Shown in pieces: positions 36-40,215 of a DNA stretch of 45,430 bases. A model generated the notes under the pieces. That model had not been told where the DNA came from, did no database searches, and saw nothing but the letters and a program-made list of their open reading frames with translations. The DNA is from Gammaproteobacteria bacterium (GTDB lineage: Bacteria > Pseudomonadota > Gammaproteobacteria > JAJDYQ01). The translations under genes and the position numbers were made by a program. Position 1 is the stretch's first letter. Each line of letters starts with the position of its first letter. Location: positions 1 to 45,430 of the forward strand of contig JAPYNQ010000059.1 of the NCBI GenBank assembly GCA_028289815.1, given 5' to 3'.

Positions 36-94
36 ACTTAACACCTCAATCAGAGACATCGTTTTGCATCATCCACTTGAATGACATGTTATGC
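36..94 (-). other. attC-like recombination site (59 bp) after hicB
   Basis: Read on the minus strand, the 59-bp segment begins GCATAAC, which overlaps the hicB stop codon, and ends GTTAAGT. The right core fits the integron consensus GTTRRRY exactly; the left core fits RYYYAAC with one mismatch. The two ends form an imperfect hairpin: 14 of 17 positions pair, counting two G-T wobbles, with a 25-nt loop. Position (overlapping the stop), length and core sequences are as in integron gene cassettes. There is no integrase in the window, so this is an inference from structure. Confidence 0.5.
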
Positions 95-2297: not shown

Positions 2298-2420
2298 AGC
2301 CGGCTGACGTGCAAGTTTTGGATACCCTCTTAATGTATAACAATCGCATACAGCCGGACAAAGTACCACTATTTCGCTGCTGCGAGGTGCTGGAATACCA
2401 AAGAACAGAGAGATGCCATT

Positions 2421-3905
2421 TTGCTATCGACGATTGAACAGAAGAGACAGCAGCTTGCAAAGAGTACCGAAACAAAAAAAAAGGCACATTTCGGTCAATT
2501 TCTCACACCCGAAAAAATTGCAGCATTTATGGCATCTCTTTTTCCGGATACCAGAGGAGATTGTCACCTCCTAGATGCGGGCGCAGGGATCGGTTCGTTA
2601 TCTGCCGCTTTTCTGAATAGATGGAGACAGGCGGGATTTCACTTTCAGAAAGTTACTGTCGATGCCTTTGAGCTTGATTGTAAACTGATTGATCACTTGT
2701 CGAATACATTGGAGCAGTACAATGGCAGAGGTGATTTTACCGCAAATATTTACGAGGAAGATTTCATTCATTCTGCGGTTGAATCATTGACTGGCAATCT
2801 GCTCTCCAGGTACCGAGGGCACTTTACTCACGCTATTCTTAATCCGCCTTACAGAAAACTCAACAGCAGGTCTGCCCATCGACTGGCACTACGCCGTGCT
2901 GGTATCGAAACAGTAAATCTCTACAGCGCTTTCGTGGCACTGGCCATCGCACAAATCATACCGGGCGGGCAGCTCGTTGCCATCATCCCGCGCAGCTTTT
3001 GCAATGGACCTTACTATCGGCCTTTCAGAGATTTTATCCTTGAGCGGACGGCTATCTGCCACATACACCTGTTTCACTCACGCAACAAAGCCTTCAAGGA
3101 TGATAATGTTCTACAGGAAAACATCATTATCCGCCTGAAGCGTGGAGCGCGACAGGACACAGTGACGGTCTCCACCTCGGCCGATGACAGTTTTTCCGAT
3201 CTCTCTTCCCATGAATACCCGTTTGATCGAATCGTATCTCCGGATGACCCGGAGCACTTTATCCATATCCCCGCGTCACCCGAACAGGGTGCTAGCCAAC
3301 TATCTCCGATAATCCGCCACACAATTGCCGAGCTTGGCATCCAGGTATCGACCGGACCGATAGTTGACTTTCGACTGAAAACACACCTGCGTGATATGCC
3401 CGAACCAAACACCGTACCCTTAATTTATCCCGGGCACTTCAATGAGAACGGTATAAAGTGGCCCATTCAGGGCATGAGGAAGTGCAATGCGATTGAACAC
3501 AATGCCAACACAGCAAAATGGCTTTATCCGAATGGGTTTTATTGCGTGGTACGTCGCTTCTCATCCAAAGAAGAAAGGCGCCGTATTGTGGCTAGCGTGG
3601 TTGAACCTGAGGTATTTGGTGAAGCAGCCATGCTAGGCTTCGAAAACCATCTGAACCTTTTCCATAGAAACAGGCATGGCCTGCCGGAATTCTTGGCTCG
3701 TGGGCTGGCCGCATTCCTCAACACAACCACAATAGATGAACATTTCCGACGCTTCAGCGGCCACACACAAGTCAATGCAAACGACCTCAGACGGATGAAA
3801 TATCCAAATCGTGATACCTTAGCCCGGTTCGGTAAGTGGGCTGCTGACCAAGGAGCACCCTCGCAGGAGCAGCTCGACATCAAGCTGGAGAACCTGACTG
3901 CATGA
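2421..3905 (+). CDS. Adenine-specific DNA methyltransferase, BsuBI/PstI type
   Basis: A 494-residue N6-adenine methyltransferase. An N-terminal segment KAHFGQFLTPEKIAAFM precedes the AdoMet-binding motif I LLDAGAGIGSLS (51-62) and catalytic motif IV NPPY (141-144); the C-terminal half is target recognition. This gamma-like layout and the downstream partner point to the BsuBI/PstI family, which methylates CTGCAG; the actual site cannot be proven from sequence. The start is a TTG at 2421 with AGAGAG seven bases upstream; no other in-frame start precedes motif I suitably. It overlaps the endonuclease gene by four bases (ATGA). The frame is intact, so protection may persist although the endonuclease is broken. 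Confidence 0.9.
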   Translation: MLSTIEQKRQQLAKSTETKKKAHFGQFLTPEKIAAFMASLFPDTRGDCHLLDAGAGIGSLSAAFLNRWRQAGFHFQKVTVDAFELDCKLIDHLSNTLEQYNGRGDFTANIYEEDFIHSAVESLTGNLLSRYRGHFTHAILNPPYRKLNSRSAHRLALRRAGIETVNLYSAFVALAIAQIIPGGQLVAIIPRSFCNGPYYRPFRDFILERTAICHIHLFHSRNKAFKDDNVLQENIIIRLKRGARQDTVTVSTSADDSFSDLSSHEYPFDRIVSPDDPEHFIHIPASPEQGASQLSPIIRHTIAELGIQVSTGPIVDFRLKTHLRDMPEPNTVPLIYPGHFNENGIKWPIQGMRKCNAIEHNANTAKWLYPNGFYCVVRRFSSKEERRRIVASVVEPEVFGEAAMLGFENHLNLFHRNRHGLPEFLARGLAAFLNTTTIDEHFRRFSGHTQVNANDLRRMKYPNRDTLARFGKWAADQGAPSQEQLDIKLENLTA

Positions 3906-4856
3906 AGAGCAAAAATGATTACATCGAAGTCGCACAACAAATAATCACTTCGCTGGGACTGCCACGAGCACAACAGAACGAGCGTTCCGCCATTTGCCTG
4001 CTTGCACTTCTGAACCTCACACCAGGCAAGCCATGGGCCGATGCAGAAAACCCTTTGATGGGCATCACACCCATAATGAATTGGGTCAGGGAGCACTATG
4101 ACAGGGAATATGCACCCAATACTCGCGAGACATTTCGTCGACAAACCATGCACCAATTCTGCGATGCAGGACTGGCCTTACATAACCCGGACAAGCCTGA
4201 TCGACCGGTAAATAGCCCGAAAGCAGTTTATCAAATCGAACCTGTCACACTCGCCCCTTCTGCGCACCTTCGACACATCAGCATGGCCCAGCAAACTGGC
4301 TACCTACTTGACCAAGCATGAAACACTGGTCGCACAATACGCCAGAGAGCGGAAACAAAATCAGACGCCGGTTGCGATTGCACCTGACCAACAAATTATG
4401 CTTAGCCCCGGCAAACATAGTAAACTGATCAGGGACATTATTGAGGATTTCGCACCACGCTTCGCACCGGGTAGCTCGCTGGTTTATGTGGGCGATACAA
4501 GCAATAAGTGGGGCTACTTTGACGCTACCCTATTGTCTAAGCTGGGCGTCGATGTTGATGCGCACGGCAAGATGCCCGATGTGGTGCTGCATTACACTGA
4601 CAAAAGCTGGCTACTGCTCGTGGAGGCCGTCACCAGTCACGGCCCAGTCAATGGAAAGCGCCACACTGAGCTTGCCACGCTGTTTGCCGGATCAAAAATC
4701 GGACTGGTCTATGTAACTGCTTTTCCGAATCGAACTATCATGGGGCACCACCTTGGCGAAATTGCATGGGAAACCGAGGTATGGGTGGCTGATGCACCTT
4801 CTCACTTAATCCATTTTAACGGAGCACGCTTCCTTGGGCCATACGATGTACACTGA
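3902..4856 (+). pseudogene. BsuBI/PstI-type restriction endonuclease, frameshifted
   Basis: The reading frame from ATG 3902 codes the N-terminal winged-helix half (for example ERSAICLLALLNL and NTRETFRRQTMHQF). It goes out of frame near 4254-4257, a run of four C, and stops at 4321. The second half, in the next frame, carries the catalytic PD-(D/E)XK part: LVYVGDTSNKWGYFD, KMPDVV, WLLLVEAVTSHGPV and KRHTEL, ending at 4856. Dropping one C joins the halves as VTLA-LLRTFDTSAW and gives 317 residues, the normal size of R.BsuBI or R.PstI (about 316-326). A TTG at 4308 could start a separate C-terminal polypeptide, but the upstream frame is clearly coding back to 4257. A real one-base insertion, phase variation or an assembly error are all possible. 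Confidence 0.88.
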
Positions 4857-4908
4857 AAGGTCTGGAACAGGCCAGCCACAACATATCTGGCAATAACCGG
4901 ATTATCCT

Positions 4909-6399
4909 ATGAATAAAGAACAATTCCTTACCCTCTGTAAAAAAGGCTACAACAAGATACCGATAACCAGCGAAGTGCTTGCCGATCTTGAAACTCCACT
5001 CAGTGCTTTTTTAAAGCTGGCAGCACAGCCCAGTACTTACCTGTTTGAGTCAGTACAAGGCGGAGAAAAATGGGGGCGCTACTCCATTATCGGCCTGCCC
5101 TGCAAATCACGCATTGAGGTTTACGGAAACCAAGTGAATCTTGTTGTCGATGACCAAGTAACTGAATCGGAAACCGTGAATGACCCTTTAGACTGGATCG
5201 AGCAGCACTACAATCAATTCAATGTCGCTCCGATAGAAAATGCGCCACCATTTACCGGTGGACTGGTCGGGTATTTCGGGTTTGATACCATTCGGTATAT
5301 TGAACCACAGCTGACCACAGGAAAAAACAAAGATACCTTGGGTACACCGGATATCGTGTTATTCATCTCCGAAGAAGTCGTCATTTTTGACAATCGGCAC
5401 GGCAAACTGTTTTTTATCGCACTGGCGGATGCCAATGAAATCGCCTATAACCGCTGCCGGAAGCGACTGCACTCCCTCAACAAGCGACTTCGCAGCAGCT
5501 GCCAAGATTACCGCCAACTCAAAGAAGACAAGATCGACATCAGAGAAGAAGACTTCGTATCGGAATTTGCCCGGGATGACTACAAAGCCGCCATCAATCG
5601 CATCAAACAATACATCATAGACGGTGATGCCATGCAGGTCGTATTATCACGGCGCATGTCCATCCCGTTAAATGTCGTCGCCCTAGATGTCTATCGTGCC
5701 CTGAGGAGTTTGAATCCTTCACCTTACATGTTCTATATTGACTTGGGCAGCTTCCAGATTGCGGGTTCTTCCCCGGAGGTTTTGACACGCGTTGAAGACG
5801 GCATCGTTACCGTGCGCCCAATTGCGGGCACTCGCCCCCGCGGGCAGGATGAAGCGCAGGACAAGACCTTGGAAAAAGAGCTGCTCGCCGACCCCAAGGA
5901 GCTTGCCGAGCATCTGATGCTCATTGATCTTGGCCGCAACGATACAGGCCGTGTGAGCAAAGTCGGTACGGTGCAGCTTACAGACCGGATGATCGTCGAA
6001 CGCTACTCCCATGTCATGCACATCGTATCCAATGTCACTGGTGAACTGGACTCGTCGCACAGCCTTATGGATGCACTGCGCGCCACATTCCCGGCGGGAA
6101 CTGTCAGCGGTGCGCCTAAAATCAGGGCACTGGAAATTATTGATGAGCTGGAACCGGTTAAACGTGGAATTTATTCCGGTGCTGTAGGCTATCTGTCATG
6201 GAGCGGGAATATGGATACCGCTATTGCCCTGCGCACCGCCATAATAAAAGACGGTCGCCTGACTATTCAGGCGGGCGGAGGCATTGTTGCCGACTCCGAC
6301 CCCGGCAAGGAATGGGAAGAAACCATGAACAAGGGGCGCGCCATGTTCAGGGCAGTCGCACTGGCCGAATCAGGCTTTATGCCCAAGAGAGATAAATGA
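4909..6399 (+). CDS. trpE: Anthranilate synthase component I
   Basis: A 496-residue chorismate-utilising enzyme that makes anthranilate from chorismate, using ammonia delivered by TrpG. The N-terminal domain has the [17 protein letters not shown]-type feedback-site region (here LFESVQGG). The C-terminal domain has the family signatures [48 protein letters not shown] and [13 protein letters not shown]. Length is normal. No leader peptide or attenuator is evident in the 52 bases upstream, and a Shine-Dalgarno sequence is weak. trpG follows with a four-base overlap. Confidence 0.97.
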
Positions 6400-6977
6400 T
6401 GCTTCTGATGATTGATAACTATGACTCGTTCACCTATAACCTTGTACAGTATCTGGGTGAGCTGGGTGCGCACACTGAAGTGTATCGCAACGACAAAATT
6501 ACCCTGGCTGAAATCACCGAACTGGCACCGGAAAAGATAGTGATCTCCCCGGGACCATGCACACCGGATGAGGCCGGCATATCCGTTGAGGTAGTCAGAC
6601 AGTTCACAGGCAAAATACCGTTGCTTGGTGTCTGTCTGGGGCACCAGAGTATCGGGCAAGCCTTTGGTGGTAACATCACACATGCTAGAAAAATCATGCA
6701 CGGCAAGACCTCCATGATTCATCATGATAATACCGGGCTGCTCAAGGGATTACCCAATCCCTTCCAAGCCACCCGCTATCACTCGCTCGTAATTGAAGAA
6801 TCCTCGCTACCCGATAGCCTGCAGGTCAACGCTTGGACGCAGCTCGAAGACGGCTCAAGGGATGAAATTATGGGCATCACACATAAAGACCATATCGTCA
6901 TCGGTATACAATTCCATCCGGAATCCATCCTGACGCCGCAAGGTCATGAAATGTTGAAAAACTTTCTGGAGATGTAA
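6396..6977 (+). CDS. trpG: Anthranilate synthase component II (glutamine amidotransferase)
   Basis: A 193-residue class I glutamine amidotransferase that releases ammonia from glutamine for TrpE; in many bacteria the same subunit also serves PabB in folate synthesis. The catalytic triad is visible: Cys80 in GVCLGHQ, His174 and Glu176 in FHPES. The oxyanion region is [12 protein letters not shown]. The start ATG overlaps the trpE stop (ATGA), indicating coupled translation of the two subunits; a second Met follows immediately. Confidence 0.97.
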
Positions 6978-7030
6978 CAATAGCCACCATACGACAGAAT
7001 GATCAGACCCAACCGAGAAAGGAAACCGCC

Positions 7031-8056
7031 ATGAATTTACAACAAGCCATTGCCAGCGTTATTGACCGACGTGATCTGTCGCACGACGATATGAAAAACG
7101 TGATGCGTCTCATCATGACCGGAGAGGCAACCCCGTCCCAGATCGGCGGTTTCCTGATCGGCTTACGCATGAAAGGCGAAACAGTGAGCGAGATCGCCAC
7201 GGCAGCGGAAGTTATGCGCGAACTCGCGCACAAAGTGGATATTTCCGGCGACCATATTGTCGATATTGTCGGCACCGGCGGCGATGGTTCCGGTACATTC
7301 AATATCTCCACAGCCGCCTGCTTTGTAGTTGCCGCGGCAGGTGGCAGGGTTGCCAAACACGGTAATCGCTCAATCTCCAGTAAGTCCGGCAGCGCTGACT
7401 TACTCGAGGCCGCCGGCGTCAACCTTGATCTGACTCCTGAGCAGATCGAGCAGTGTATCGAACAGACCGGCGTCGGCTTCATGTTTGCGCCCAAACATCA
7501 CAGCGCCATGCGACACGCGATTGGTCCCCGTAAAGAAATGGGGGTACGCACCCTGTTCAATATCCTGGGGCCACTAACCAACCCCGCCGATGCACCAAAT
7601 CTGGTCATGGGCGTGTTTTCCCCGGAACTGGTTGAACCACTGGCACATGTATTCAAGGCACTGGGCAGCAACCATATCATGGTCGTGCATTCAGATGATG
7701 GACTGGATGAAATCAGCATCGCCGCCAATACCCATGTTGCCGAGCTAAAAGGCGGCGAGGTCACCACTTGGGAAATTGATCCCGCCGATTATGGATGCAA
7801 AGCCGACAGCCTTGATTCAATCAAGGTTGAAAATGCCGAGGAAAGCCTTGAAATGGTGTATGCGGTACTAGGCAACGAGCCGGGGCCCGCGACCGATATT
7901 GTGGCACTCAATGCCGGGGCTGCAATCTATGTCTCAGGCCTTGCGGACTCAATGGCAGCCGGCGTTACCCAGGCACGAGAAGCTATTGAATCGGAGAATG
8001 CCGCAGAAAAAATGGCACAACTTGTGGCTGTATCCAATATGCCTGCCATTGTGTGA
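7031..8056 (+). CDS. trpD: Anthranilate phosphoribosyltransferase
   Basis: A 341-residue enzyme that transfers phosphoribose from PRPP to anthranilate. Hallmarks are the [13 protein letters not shown] glycine-rich PRPP loop (81-93), [21 protein letters not shown] (109-129), and the metal-binding DDGLDE segment near 218. The start is backed by AAAGGA ending eight bases upstream. It is 53 bases after trpG. The following gene of the pathway, trpC, is separated from it by about 2.4 kb of accessory DNA on the opposite strand. Confidence 0.97.
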
Positions 8057-8075
8057 GTGTTGGGGCAAAATTGGT

Positions 8076-8306
8076 TTATGTTGTGAGGCTATTCAGGTGA
8101 AGACTGAACCGTATCAAGTGGGGATGCTCGCCAGCAAGACATATAGACGATCATTGATCGGTGGCAGCATGTGCTTTCTGAAAGTCACGCTACTTCGCTA
8201 TGGCCTTTTCATCAATACCATAGCGCTGACTCAACACCTTGAGCAGAGCCATCTATCGTTGTATTACCGCTCGGACAGCATGCGTCATCGTAGTATACCC
8301 ATGTAA
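8076..8306 (-). pseudogene. Degenerate IS481-like transposase fragment
   Basis: Read on the minus strand, 8306..8187 translates as LHGYTTMTHAVRAVIQR, a TAG, then ALLKVLSQRYGIDEKAIAK, a TAG and R. This resembles the N-terminal helix-turn-helix of IS481-like transposases (HGSARTT..AVR.AIQ..., RYGINPKTVAKWR), with a TAG where the conserved Trp of AKW would be. A second piece, 8152..8076, reads DRLYVLLASIP and, after a one-base shift at a run of G (C on the minus strand), HLIRFSLHLNSL, resembling the YALQATIPHLTRSSLHRCL segment. The rest of the transposase is missing and no terminal inverted repeats were found. Family assignment is from motif memory. Confidence 0.6.
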
Positions 8307-8354
8307 TGACTAGCCAATAAATCCCTCTTGCGTTCAGGTGGTAATGATAAACTA

Positions 8355-8735
8355 TTAATTTTCTCGGGATTCAACAAATGATTTCGCTTCTCTTAGGCAC
8401 TCTTCAAAACCAAATCCTACTTTCCCGTCTTCCAAGATATTCTGCAATTCAATGATGTTTTCTAACTCATCACAATAATCATCAGCCGCTAACCCAAGAG
8501 TAGCCATAGTACCGACAAGAGGTATCAAAGAACCTGCTACTTTCTTTCCAGTTTTCTTAAGCGATTTCTTTAAAAGATTCGCACGTCGTTTTTTGATATT
8601 ATCTCTAACTCTATCAATTTTCGCTCCCTGAGCTAAAAGCTGCTTCGAATGAAAACTTGGAAGGCCAAGATCAAACTGAAAGAGACTACCTGAAACTAGT
8701 GTTCCCGCTAGAAACACTATGCCTGATCTGATCAA
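8355..8735 (-). CDS. Small membrane-associated protein of unknown function
   Basis: A 126-residue protein with an N-terminal hydrophobic stretch (about 4-20, signal or anchor), a strongly basic central helix (about 41-65, rich in Lys and Arg), a second hydrophobic segment SLIPLVGTMATLGLAA, and an acidic C-terminal tail beginning DDYCDELENI. I do not recognise a named family. The start is a TTG at 8735, nine bases after the attC-like core, with no clear Shine-Dalgarno; a GTG at 8717 is an alternative. The placement fits a gene-cassette ORF. The transposase fragment follows about 50 bases after its stop. Confidence 0.6.
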   Translation of the reverse strand: MIRSGIVFLAGTLVSGSLFQFDLGLPSFHSKQLLAQGAKIDRVRDNIKKRRANLLKKSLKKTGKKVAGSLIPLVGTMATLGLAADDYCDELENIIELQNILEDGKVGFGFEECLREAKSFVESREN

Positions 8736-8744
8736 CTTGTTTAT

Positions 8745-8816
8745 ACCTAACGTTTAAGCCGTGCAACACAAACGAAGTATAGCATAGCTTGCATCCGGAT
8801 GAGTATCTCGTTAAGC
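8745..8816 (-). other. attC-like recombination site (72 bp)
   Basis: On the minus strand the site begins GCTTAAC (8816..8810, perfect RYYYAAC) and ends GTTAGGT (8751..8745, perfect GTTRRRY). The outer arms pair over eight bases with two G-T wobbles, and an inner stem pairs CCG with CGG and TGCAA with TTGCA around a 22-nt loop, with unpaired extra bases on one side, as in integron attC sites. It starts four bases after the family-conserved end of the DUF3825 frame and ends nine bases before the next start codon, the usual layout of gene cassettes. No integrase is nearby. Confidence 0.6.
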
Positions 8817-8820
8817 ACCT

Positions 8821-9657
8821 TTATGGATTAAGCCAATCACGATCTGGACGAGTGATTAACCTAGCATCTACATAGGCCATATCCATTGTAAGAGCTGTTT
8901 TTATTCGATAAAGAAGATTGTGTTTATCCCGTTCCGCAACGAGGGCCAAATCTGCCTCATTTTCATCTGTGAGATTAAGGGGCAACAAAAGCTGAAGTCT
9001 TCCTTGATATCAACTAGGGATCGCTACTTTATAGTTGCGCATTATTTTTTGCTTTAGTAAGTCGACTGCGCCCTGCATCGCAGAAATTGCAAGGATTCTA
9101 TTACCGCGAAGGGACTCAGGCAGCCGATCATTATTTTCGTCAAAAATATGATCGTAGTTAACCTCAATTTCGCATGAAGAGTTGAAAACCAAACCAACTG
9201 GATCGGCAATATAGCTTGCTATATCAGGAAGTGGTGAGAAATCCGATAACTTTTTAGAATATGAGTCAAAGAAGCCATATAGAGTCCACCTAGGCTGACG
9301 TTTTTCCTCTGCACTTCTATTTTTGAAAAAAGTTGCATAAATATCTTTTTCGTTCCTTGTCTGTAGACCAGTATTAAAACAAGCGCGGTTACCGTCGCTT
9401 GAATAGGCTATTTTTTCTTCCTCAAGCAACCGAAGAAAAGTGTAATTTAAGTAGTTCATGAGAATAGGATAGTTTCGGTCTTCTCTGATGTATTCGCTTC
9501 GATGAAAATTCCAATCCTCATCTTTCGCCATTTTGGCTAGTCTTTTATATGGAGTCTCCCATGTTTCTCCTTGGTCACGGCTGTAACCAAAATGAGCAAA
9601 TATTTCACTTGCGGGTTGTTCCTTATACTTTGCAACCAAGCACTTGTAATTACTCAT
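8821..9657 (-). pseudogene. DUF3825 domain protein interrupted by an in-frame TGA
   Basis: The frame from ATG 9657 reads 215 codons with DUF3825-type features: WETPYKRLAKMAKDEDW, YLNYTFLRLLEEEKI, ACFNTGLQT, DIYATFF, WTLYGFFDSYSK and a YDHIFDENNDRLP segment. It stops at a TGA (9012..9010) after KVAIPS. Without any frame change, the next 62 codons read YQGRLQLLLPLNL, ADLALVAERD, LTMDMAYVDARLI and PDRDWL, which is how the family normally ends. The gene therefore carries one nonsense codon, probably a recent mutation from TGG or CGA, or a base error. The domain's biochemical role is unknown to me. It is bordered by attC-like sites. Confidence 0.8.
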
Positions 9658-9690
9658 CTACTTCTCCTTAGTAAATACAACTTTTCGTGG

Positions 9691-9753
9691 CGTTAACGAT
9701 CAATATCAATGACATCAGCTCTGCTGGCATCCATCTGCATACACTTGTTAGAG
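9691..9753 (-). other. Weak attC-like site between GIY-YIG and DUF3825 genes
   Basis: On the minus strand the segment starts CTCTAAC six bases after the GIY-YIG stop codon and ends GTTAACG 33 bases before the DUF3825 start. The invariant AAC and GTT triplets are present and TAAC can pair with GTTA, and a small CAGC/GCTG hairpin sits in the centre. Both cores deviate from consensus and the arms pair poorly, so this is at best a degenerate site; its position is the main argument. Confidence 0.3.
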
Positions 9754-9759
9754 ATCGCT

Positions 9760-10239
9760 TCATCCATGTATATTCCATGACAAATTGTTATTGCATGATG
9801 AGATTATATGCTCCTCTACCACAAGCCTAAGTATCCCCGGTTCAACTTTGATATATGCGATACCAATCTTTCCGCCACCAGTGACCCATTCTTTAACTTC
9901 CTTTAGCTTTGAACCGGTTTGAGCATTTTTTTTAATCAGATGCTGAGTTAGTCGATCTCGTAAACCTTTGCTTTTCCTCTGACCAACATATACAGGATTC
10001 CATTTTCTCCCATGGGTTTTTAGAAATATCGCATACACGTTTCCTTTGCCCTTGAGATTACTAAGAAATTTCTTGTTTGATTCTTTTATTTTCTCCACGG
10101 GCCAACAGCTTTGTAAAGGGCATTCTTCTGGATAATTGAACTCGTATGGCTGGCTATCAAGAAGCGATTTTCGACATTTTTCCGCAAATCTTGAAAGATC
10201 TTCTGGATAGGTGAAGGTTTCTGGACTATAAATAGGCAT
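9760..10239 (-). CDS. GIY-YIG nuclease-like protein
   Basis: A 159-residue protein. The C-terminal two thirds look like a GIY-YIG fold: VYAI (68-71) stands for the GIY strand, VYVGQ (83-87) for the YIG strand, an arginine follows in LRDRLTQHL, a glutamate in LVVEEHII (around 142), and an asparagine near the C-terminus (SCNNNLSWN). This matches the order of catalytic residues in the superfamily, but the exact subfamily and target are unknown. I prefer ATG 10239 over the GTG at 10245. It is the first ORF of the reverse-oriented accessory block between trpD and trpC. Confidence 0.65.
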   Translation of the reverse strand: MPIYSPETFTYPEDLSRFAEKCRKSLLDSQPYEFNYPEECPLQSCWPVEKIKESNKKFLSNLKGKGNVYAIFLKTHGRKWNPVYVGQRKSKGLRDRLTQHLIKKNAQTGSKLKEVKEWVTGGGKIGIAYIKVEPGILRLVVEEHIISSCNNNLSWNIHG

Positions 10240-10263
10240 GTTCACTACTAACTATCAAGTGTA

Positions 10264-10270
10264 GCCCAAC
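10264..10270 (-). other. Isolated integron-type core heptamer
   Basis: GTTGGGC on the minus strand matches GTTRRRY and lies 24 bases upstream of the GIY-YIG start, the position expected for the boundary of a first cassette. No partner RYYYAAC was found within 160 bases upstream, so it could be chance. Confidence 0.2.
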
Positions 10271-10533
10271 ATACCACAAAACGCGGTTCAGTGCACAAAT
10301 CCATACCCAAACTATCCTATTTGCTTTTGGCATAAATCCTGGCCTGTATAACTGCATCGGCATTATTGAGCGTAGCAGGTATTCTGTATCTCTGCCGGCA
10401 AGCTCCATTTCCTTGTTCCGATACACGACCTGTCGGTGCTCTTTATCGCCAAGACATCACAGGGCTGGGATTACAAGCCTAGGTGCGGTACATTACCCGC
10501 AGAAAAAAGCCAGTATGTAACGGACTCATACAC

Positions 10534-11331
10534 ATGCCAGATACCCCTGATATCCTGTTGAAAATACTCGAACGCAAGCACCAAGAGATTACCGCTCGCC
10601 GCGAAGCGGTGTCACTGGCTGAACTGGAGGCGCAGACAGGACAAGCACCACAGCCGCGTGGTTTTGCCTCTGCAATACGACATACTATTGCCAAGGGTCG
10701 CCCGGCGGTTATTGCCGAGGCAAAAAAAGCATCTCCGAGCAATGGTATTTTGCGAAAAAATTTTGACGTTGCGCAAATTGCCAAAAGCTATCACACCGGT
10801 GGCGCGAGCTGCATGTCTGTGCTCACAGATGAACATTTTTTCCAGGGCAGTGACGATTATCTGAAGCAGGCACGTACCGCCTGCAGTCTGCCATTGATAC
10901 GCAAAGATTTTATTATTGATCCTTACCAGGTCCATGAATCACGCATCATGGGTGCTGATTGTATTTTACTCATCGTTGCAGCCCTTGAAGACGCACAAAT
11001 GACCGAGCTGGTTCGGTTCGCAAGACAGCTGGAGCTGGATGTGCTTATTGAGATCCATGACGGCGATGAACTAGAACGCGCATTGAAGCTCGATCAGCCC
11101 TTGATCGGCATTAATAACCGCAATCTGCATACCTTCAAAACAACACTGGATACCACCATCAGCCTGCTGGGTAAGATTCCCGAAGATCGAATTGTTGTTA
11201 CTGAAAGTGGTATCCATACAAGAGAGGATGTATCACTGATGCGGAATAATCATGTAAATGCCTTTCTGATCGGAGAGGCACTCATGCGAGCATCTGAATC
11301 CGAAGAAAAACTGAGAGAATTATTCTTCTAA
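10534..11331 (+). CDS. trpC: Indole-3-glycerol phosphate synthase
   Basis: A 265-residue TIM-barrel enzyme that cyclises CdRP to indole-3-glycerol phosphate in tryptophan synthesis. Signatures are [11 protein letters not shown] (61-71), [41 protein letters not shown] and TESGIHT. I chose ATG 10534 because it gives the usual [15 protein letters not shown] start; an in-frame ATG at 10483 would add 17 uncharacteristic residues. It is cut off from trpEGD by the accessory block, so it must either be read through it or have its own promoter. Confidence 0.95.
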
Positions 11332-38907: not shown

Positions 38908-40215
38908 AGCGGCATCGAGTGCCTGCTCAAGCGGGTCGATGGAAGGCACGGGTGGCATGGCATTGGCCATTGGATGCCTGAGGTACGAGTACGGGCACTC
39001 GCCGGAAAAGTCGGTGCCGGGGTCGCTTGGGCAGACAACAGCTCGTCATCGTCATCCGGTTCCTTGAGTGCCAGCTTGGAGCGCACTTCGGAGGCGCTGA
39101 CATGGAGGCCAAGCGGCACCAGTAAAGCCCAAGGTCTCGGCGAGCATCTTGACGTCAGTCGGATCCTCACACCGGATGATGACCTGTGGCCAAGCGCTGC
39201 GCTCACCATGGTTGAGTTTAATGATCGGGATCACCAAGTCACGGCGCAGGGTGGCGGCCAGTTGGCGGGCGTCGGAATGTTCGATATCTTGACGCACCAG
39301 ATTATGCACCTGACCGAGGGCATAGCTGCCGCTGTTGCCGTCCTCCGTGGTCAAAGTCTGTCCCAACACGGCAATGCTGATCTGTCTGTCTATGTAAGCG
39401 ATGAGCTCGCGGTAGATTTCCGACCGGCCCCGCACGGTGGTATCTGCCACAAACTCAGTCATCATGTCCTCCGGCACGATGGCGGCGGCATCTACTGCGA
39501 CATTGCACACGGCCTTGAGCAGTTCTTTTTTATCTCTTTCATTTGCGGCCGGCCCGAACTTTCCCAGCCGCATCGGTTGACCATATGCCTCGCAGAAGCG
39601 CACCCAATCTTTCATGCCGAAATTTTTGAATAGCCAACCCCAAGCAGCGGCGCGGGCGATGCCGCCACGAATGGCTAGGCCGGACTTGGCCTTGGAGATA
39701 TGGACAATAAATTTATAGGGCTTTAGGTCAACCCAGCCGCCCTCGTCATCACGGCGCATCAGGCGGGTACCGGTGTCGCGGTCGAAGTCAAACCAGCGCG
39801 GTTGACGCCACTCGATCCGCTCCGGTATCCATTGTCGCTCTGACATATCCCACATGATCTCCGCGACGGCGTAGCCCTTGCTGATGGCATCGAGCAGATC
39901 AAACAGCTCGTCCTCAATCGCCTCACCACGGAAGTACTCACGCACCAGATCGGCATCGGCCACGTCCTTGGCGCTATCGGAGGCCGGTTCGATCTGCACG
40001 CCAATCTGTGCGACCTGCCGCCGGCGGGTTTGCGTCACGCCCAAATAATGCAGGTCGCGCTCCTCCATGATCTCTACTAACTCAACGTAACGCTCACTAG
40101 CCCCGTGACCGGGCACCTCCGAGTCCCTCAAGATGGCGGCAAGACGCTGGGGAGTGATCTTGCCTAGGTGACTGGTCGGCCAGATTGACCTCACGCCGGT
40201 AACGGAGGCACCGGC
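38908..40215 (-). pseudogene. Decayed Mu-like phage portal protein (gp29/DUF935 type)
   Basis: The main frame (40194..about 39130) reads as a Mu gp29-like portal: SIWPTSHLGKITPQRLAAILRDSE, HYLGVTQTRRRQVAQIG, WRQPRWFDFDRD, YGQPMRLGKFG, DRQISIAVLGQTLTTEDGNSGSYALGQVHN. It then shifts frame near 39125 (LVPLGLHVSASEVRSKLALKEP with a DDDDELL tail) and again near 38960-39000 (PPVPSIDPLEQALDAA). The family-like text continues upstream of the GTG at 40194 (ASVTG) into a stop, so the natural start is lost. No other phage genes flank it. In phages it would form the portal vertex of the capsid. Confidence 0.75.

Follow-up and report, generated by a model that had tools for sequence, protein, structure and literature searches.

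A very probably decayed integron attC site in an integrase-less cassette array within a gammaproteobacterial trp operon

The interval 8745–8816 of the DNA analysed here is very probably an integron attC eroded by point mutations, in a short, integrase-less cassette array inside a trp operon. The window, meaning the whole stretch analysed, comprises 45,430 nt and corresponds to positions 1 to 45,430 of the forward strand of contig JAPYNQ010000059.1 (assembly GCA_028289815.1, Gammaproteobacteria bacterium); its features are given in Table 1. What settles the identity of the site as an attC is homology over the full 72 nt, not its cores or a general covariance model (CM), and a second attC, together with a trp insertion that sister genomes lack, argues for a small cassette array without an integrase of its own. 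A decayed attC in a stranded array is of a kind already known; its position is unusual, and the generic models built here are not sensitive enough to detect it.

Table 1 Coordinates of the array, its host operon and further attC remnants in the window
Feature	Position	Strand	Remarks
Decayed attC (main site; very probable)	8745..8816	-	Between DUF3825 cassette and ORF A cassette; nhmmer, alignment, tile rank, CMs
Second decayed attC	9692..9753	-	Gap between ORF C and DUF3825 gene
ORF A, 126 aa	8355..8735	-	No known family; third array gene
DUF3825 gene	8821..9657	-	PF12873; second array gene; in-frame TGA at 9010-9012
ORF C, 161 aa	9760..10245	-	PF20815 GIY_YIG_2 E 0.0037; first array gene
Insertion between trpD and trpC, 2.4 kb	8057..10530	.	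Three cassette-like ORFs; edges approximate
trpD, left host flank	7031..8056	+	PF00591 E 5e-97
trpC, right host flank	10531..11331	+	PF00218 E 7e-97; homology to G001 from about 10532
Further decayed attC	2335..2395	+	Left edge of gph/trpE insertion
Weaker candidate ('hicB site'), likely decayed attC	36..94	-	After hicB, contig end

Homology of the main site to an attC subtype

Read on the minus strand from 8816 to 8745, the main site (GCTTAACGAGATACTCATCCGGATGCAAGCTATGCTATACTTCGTTTGTGTTGCACGGCTTAAACGTTAGGT) carries both consensus cores where the first-pass annotation had placed them, with GCTTAAC matching RYYYAAC (R'') and GTTAGGT matching GTTRRRY (R') exactly, and the two are mutually complementary (7/7 pairs, G-T counted). 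The distances behind its claim of cassette geometry are equally correct: the site begins 4 bases past the TAA (8821–8823) of the DUF3825 frame, and 9 bases separate its end from a TTG start at 8735. The supposedly conserved ORF end on the near side does exist as the end of a frame, but an in-frame TGA severs it from the rest of the gene. When the window was scanned for attCs with a simple search on cores plus stem, the main site was the top match. The cores prove nothing alone, because across the genome (2.18 Mb) such core pairs are rarer (23) than a reversed control pattern (65); we therefore rejected the core pattern by itself as attC evidence, its below-control frequency being uninformative.

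Covariance models were built from attCs in arrays adjoining IntI of the same class, IntI being present in 144 of 369 genomes. R1 comprises 26 sites, R2 112 sites and R3 33 sites of the genus, none of them from the window. R1 recovers more than 100 attCs in integron loci, with scores up to 67.8 bits. At the main site it gave 11.7 bits (E 0.33 per 45 kb), R2 10.0 bits (E 2.8) and the genus model R3 15.9 bits (E 0.088 in the window), and model score alone could not separate the site from background. A background-level score from an attC model was the first outcome that the annotation itself had named as speaking against its claim, and the general model did score near background. Rfam at gathering thresholds yielded nothing at the main site, the sole match in the window being t44, elsewhere.

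Homology to a particular group of attCs tells the site apart. An nhmmer profile of four same-genus attCs (three from G001 and one from a G002 contig that carries IntI) scores 34.8 bits at 8813–8746 of the window (E 4.5e-10), where the runner-up has an E of 0.46. The best local alignment of the main site against 144 attCs scored 66 (shuffles: mean 23.4, sd 3.0), and both results speak for descent from attCs. When 1814 tiles of the window were ranked, the two tiles over the main site came first and second. With twelve members of attC subtype TAACAAGGCGCTCGTTCGGACGCAAACTACGCTGCGCTTCGTTTGCGCCGCACAGCTTNNNCGTTA, which occurs in G001, G002 and other integrons of the class, the site shares 62–71% identity over the full 72 nt including the central loop. 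The central loop varies freely between unrelated attCs; since it matches as well, descent is favoured over convergence. The subtype members are 74–96% identical to one another, whereas the main site, homologous to them along its full length, lies 16 transitions from their consensus and has lost the hairpin.

The core frequencies and the generic CM score, along with a fold z of about 0 (see below), are what one would expect if ordinary intergenic DNA happened to fit the loose attC consensus and the stem were fortuitous. We regard this as extremely improbable. Chance is refuted by the end-to-end subtype match, because members of the subtype occupy arrays beside IntI, some relatives of the main site being attCs whose contigs also carry full-length IntI (L101, L080, L077); the attC between ORF C and the DUF3825 gene also stands against it. 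The earlier description of an attC between two accessory genes is upheld by homology to known attCs and by that neighbouring attC, while the cores on which it leaned are at chance level.

Loss of the hairpin and mode of decay

The inner stem proposed in the first-pass annotation, CCG(GA)TGCAA with TTGCACGG, is present as eight pairs with a 2-nt bulge; it is not the homologous attC pairing. It would leave spacers of 11 and 7 nt on its two sides, the usual range in real attCs being ~4–7 nt per side; with its spacing wrong and its pairing different from that of homologous sites, it was rejected as the attC fold. Pairing in the subtype joins the CGGACGCAAAC arm with GTTTGCGCCG, which the main site keeps only via several G-T wobbles. 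Instead of an L''/L' stem with an extrahelical base and short spacers, the homologous stem is degraded to mismatches and G-T pairs.

Folding of the bottom strand, which the annotation had suggested as a check, did not favour the site: as single-stranded DNA, both strands were about as stable as their shuffled versions (z 0.1 and −0.05). Median z values were −1.8 for attCs of the genus and −3.1 for those of the class, although 36% of the genus attCs also lie above −1. The predicted bottom-strand energy is −5.7 kcal/mol; its four sister sites range from −8.6 to −14.5 kcal/mol, and the subtype consensus reaches −15.6 kcal/mol.

All 16 differences between the main site and the subtype consensus are transitions, 12 of them from G:C to A:T. 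Across trpEGD, ~72% of the differences from G001 are likewise transitions (468/648). We rejected the all-transition pattern as something special, as its chance is ~0.005 given the trp bias and it was noticed after the fact. The changes in the main site fit neutral drift under the transition bias of these genomes.

A cassette array within the trp operon

Read along the minus strand, the array runs ORF C, attC 9753–9692, the DUF3825 gene, attC 8816–8745 and ORF A, so that two attCs of the same orientation each follow an ORF, as in a cassette array. The second attC reached 23.1 bits with R3 (E 0.0011) and 14.0 bits with R2, the best score of that model in the window; its E with R1 was 3.6 per 45 kb, and its alignment scored 42 (null 23.4, sd 2.7). 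Among the array genes, the DUF3825 gene matches the whole PF12873 model, positions 1–238 (254.9 bits, one TGA inside; 215-aa part E 1.1e-49), and is a probable pseudogene. ORF C possibly encodes a GIY-YIG nuclease, judged by a PF20815 match of 17.7 bits, under the Pfam cut-off of 22.4. Integrons yielded no close copy of the DUF3825 gene: it was absent from the 93 other genomes of the class that were searched, and the flanks of four DUF3825 relatives (Microcoleus, Psychroflexus, Fulvivirga and Saccharofermentans) held no attC. A search for plasmid relatives of the three array proteins returned none for ORFs A and C and only distant DUF3825 matches.

The earlier annotation overlooked that the main site is degenerate and that the trp operon is split by the cassettes, whose insertion is specific to the lineage. 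Neither same-genus genome carries the block: in G001, 16 bases separate the aligned flanks, and G002 lacks it too. trpD and trpC adjoin in other genomes of the class.

How the block arrived is less certain. Another mobile element or homologous recombination could have delivered it with old attC remnants aboard, and the outer ends would suit such a course, as ~280 bp at each end hold no cassette-like gene and alignment detected no convincing attC there (8057–8355: 30 vs 27.4, sd 2.8; 10240–10531: 36 vs 26.6, sd 2.4). We consider this unlikely, given that ORF, Pfam and repeat scans recognised no transposase or long flanking repeat, that the block is single-copy in the genome and that attCs were detected at several other loci of this genome. 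The idea that the whole insertion is itself a repeat or mobile element was rejected on the same grounds of single copy and missing long repeats. A 12-base sequence, CCGCAGAAAAAA, occurs at both 8001–8012 and 10497–10508, near the ends of the insertion, and may be due to chance.

We infer instead that an integron integrase placed the cassettes in the trp operon, where they may have entered through an attG-type secondary site or been left by the decay of an integron formerly standing there. IntI recombines attC as a folded bottom strand, and the integrase would have acted on that strand of the 8745–8816 attC. Loss of a working IntI in the lineage would then have stranded the array, which would have been mutating since, mainly by G:C to A:T transitions.

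Integrase-less cassette arrays are known as CALINs and have been proposed to be degraded integrons (PMC9024848). The trp array resembles them in having at least two attCs, no nearby integrase and accessory genes in one orientation, but differs in sitting within a biosynthetic operon and in that both attCs are too decayed for the generic model (R1 E 0.33 and 3.6), which means that the array would probably escape a standard scan. In Xanthomonas, intI is widely inactivated, and CALINs occur there outside the integron locus (PMC12444791). Cassettes have also been reported to insert at chromosomal attG sites (Loot et al. 2024, as cited in PMC12901181); the likeness lies in cassettes at a chromosomal locus off the integron, here trpD/trpC, and the difference in the array having at least two attCs rather than being one cassette. 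Taxon-specific attC models are already established (PMC8352920).

Integrase remnants and further attCs in the genome

None of the genome's contigs carries an IntI over the TIGR02249 family cut-off, contig C55 having no match at all, which agrees with a CALIN in that no integrase is nearby. Contig C9 holds an IntI-like match of 72 residues that contains a TAG stop (profile E 1.3e-12) and aligns with a G002 IntI at 41% identity across 51 residues; an attC candidate lies 1.3 kb to the right of this match (C9:50974–51049, R3 E 1.3). In coordinates of this locus (L078, G000 C9:44000–54000), the fragment occupies 5528–5680 on the minus strand and the attC candidate 6975–7050, with small ORFs between; it is a probable dead integron. 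Sites of the attC type are abundant in the genus: we counted 25 matches in G001, where nothing resembling IntI reached E ≤ 1e-60, and four in G002.

With a hairpin no stabler than shuffles, an in-frame TGA in the DUF3825 gene and IntI present only as a stop-bearing fragment, the array appears dead and the main site is probably no longer mobile. If the attC were still functional, the array would be excised or shuffled by an IntI acting in trans or missed in the assembly; the genome is a draft (97% complete, 89 contigs), so an intact IntI could sit in a gap. The R boxes are indeed intact and complementary, G-T wobbles could allow part of the stem, and the same-genus G002 has two IntI over the cut-off. 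Against this stand the weak predicted hairpin relative to its sisters, the 16 substitutions from the consensus, the adjoining pseudogene and the yield of a mere IntI fragment from this genome, which together make continued function quite improbable.

A stranded array with a lost integrase and a hairpin dissolved through transitions makes a clear case of integron decay. It also exposes a blind spot, as relic attCs that general CMs cannot distinguish from noise are recognisable with a profile of the lineage's own subtype, and such relics help to explain foreign genes that split a core operon. The remnant at 2335–2395 went undetected by the CMs and was matched by the nhmmer profile (E 2.8e-5) and by alignment (54; null 25.9, sd 3.1). 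The gph/trpE insertion there (2298–4905, 2.6 kb) carries a BsuBI/PstI-type restriction-modification system and is absent in G001 and G002. The candidate at 36–94 is likely a decayed attC, with 12.0, 12.9 and 14.6 bits (R1, R2 and R3) and an alignment score of 37 (null 22.9, sd 2.3); in the tile ranking it does not stand out from unrelated tiles.

Tentatively, cassettes may repeatedly enter scattered secondary sites in core operons throughout the genus (gph/trpE, trpD/trpC and perhaps more) and persist after integrase loss, in which case a large, hidden part of the genus's accessory genes would be marked by attCs too decayed for standard models; we think this possible rather than probable.

Several further observations concern cassette content and other loci. 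Attachment-site candidates L130 and L131 (G000 C73 and C18) follow shortly after genes of DNA-methylase (restriction-modification) type, which suggests that defence genes are common cassettes in the genus. The IntI-bearing array L077 (G002 C356) includes a cassette at 818–1693 whose protein resembles, by eye, a nucleotidyltransferase of a kind found in defence systems. An attC-like site at 293–355 of L116 / L132 (G000 C27; 14.6 bits with R1) follows a short ORF, and its flanks are, in our reading by eye, presumably the end of tuf and rpsJ. Finally, the interval 39052–40194 of the window, near pilB, encodes a Mu-like phage portal protein (PF06074 E 8e-99).
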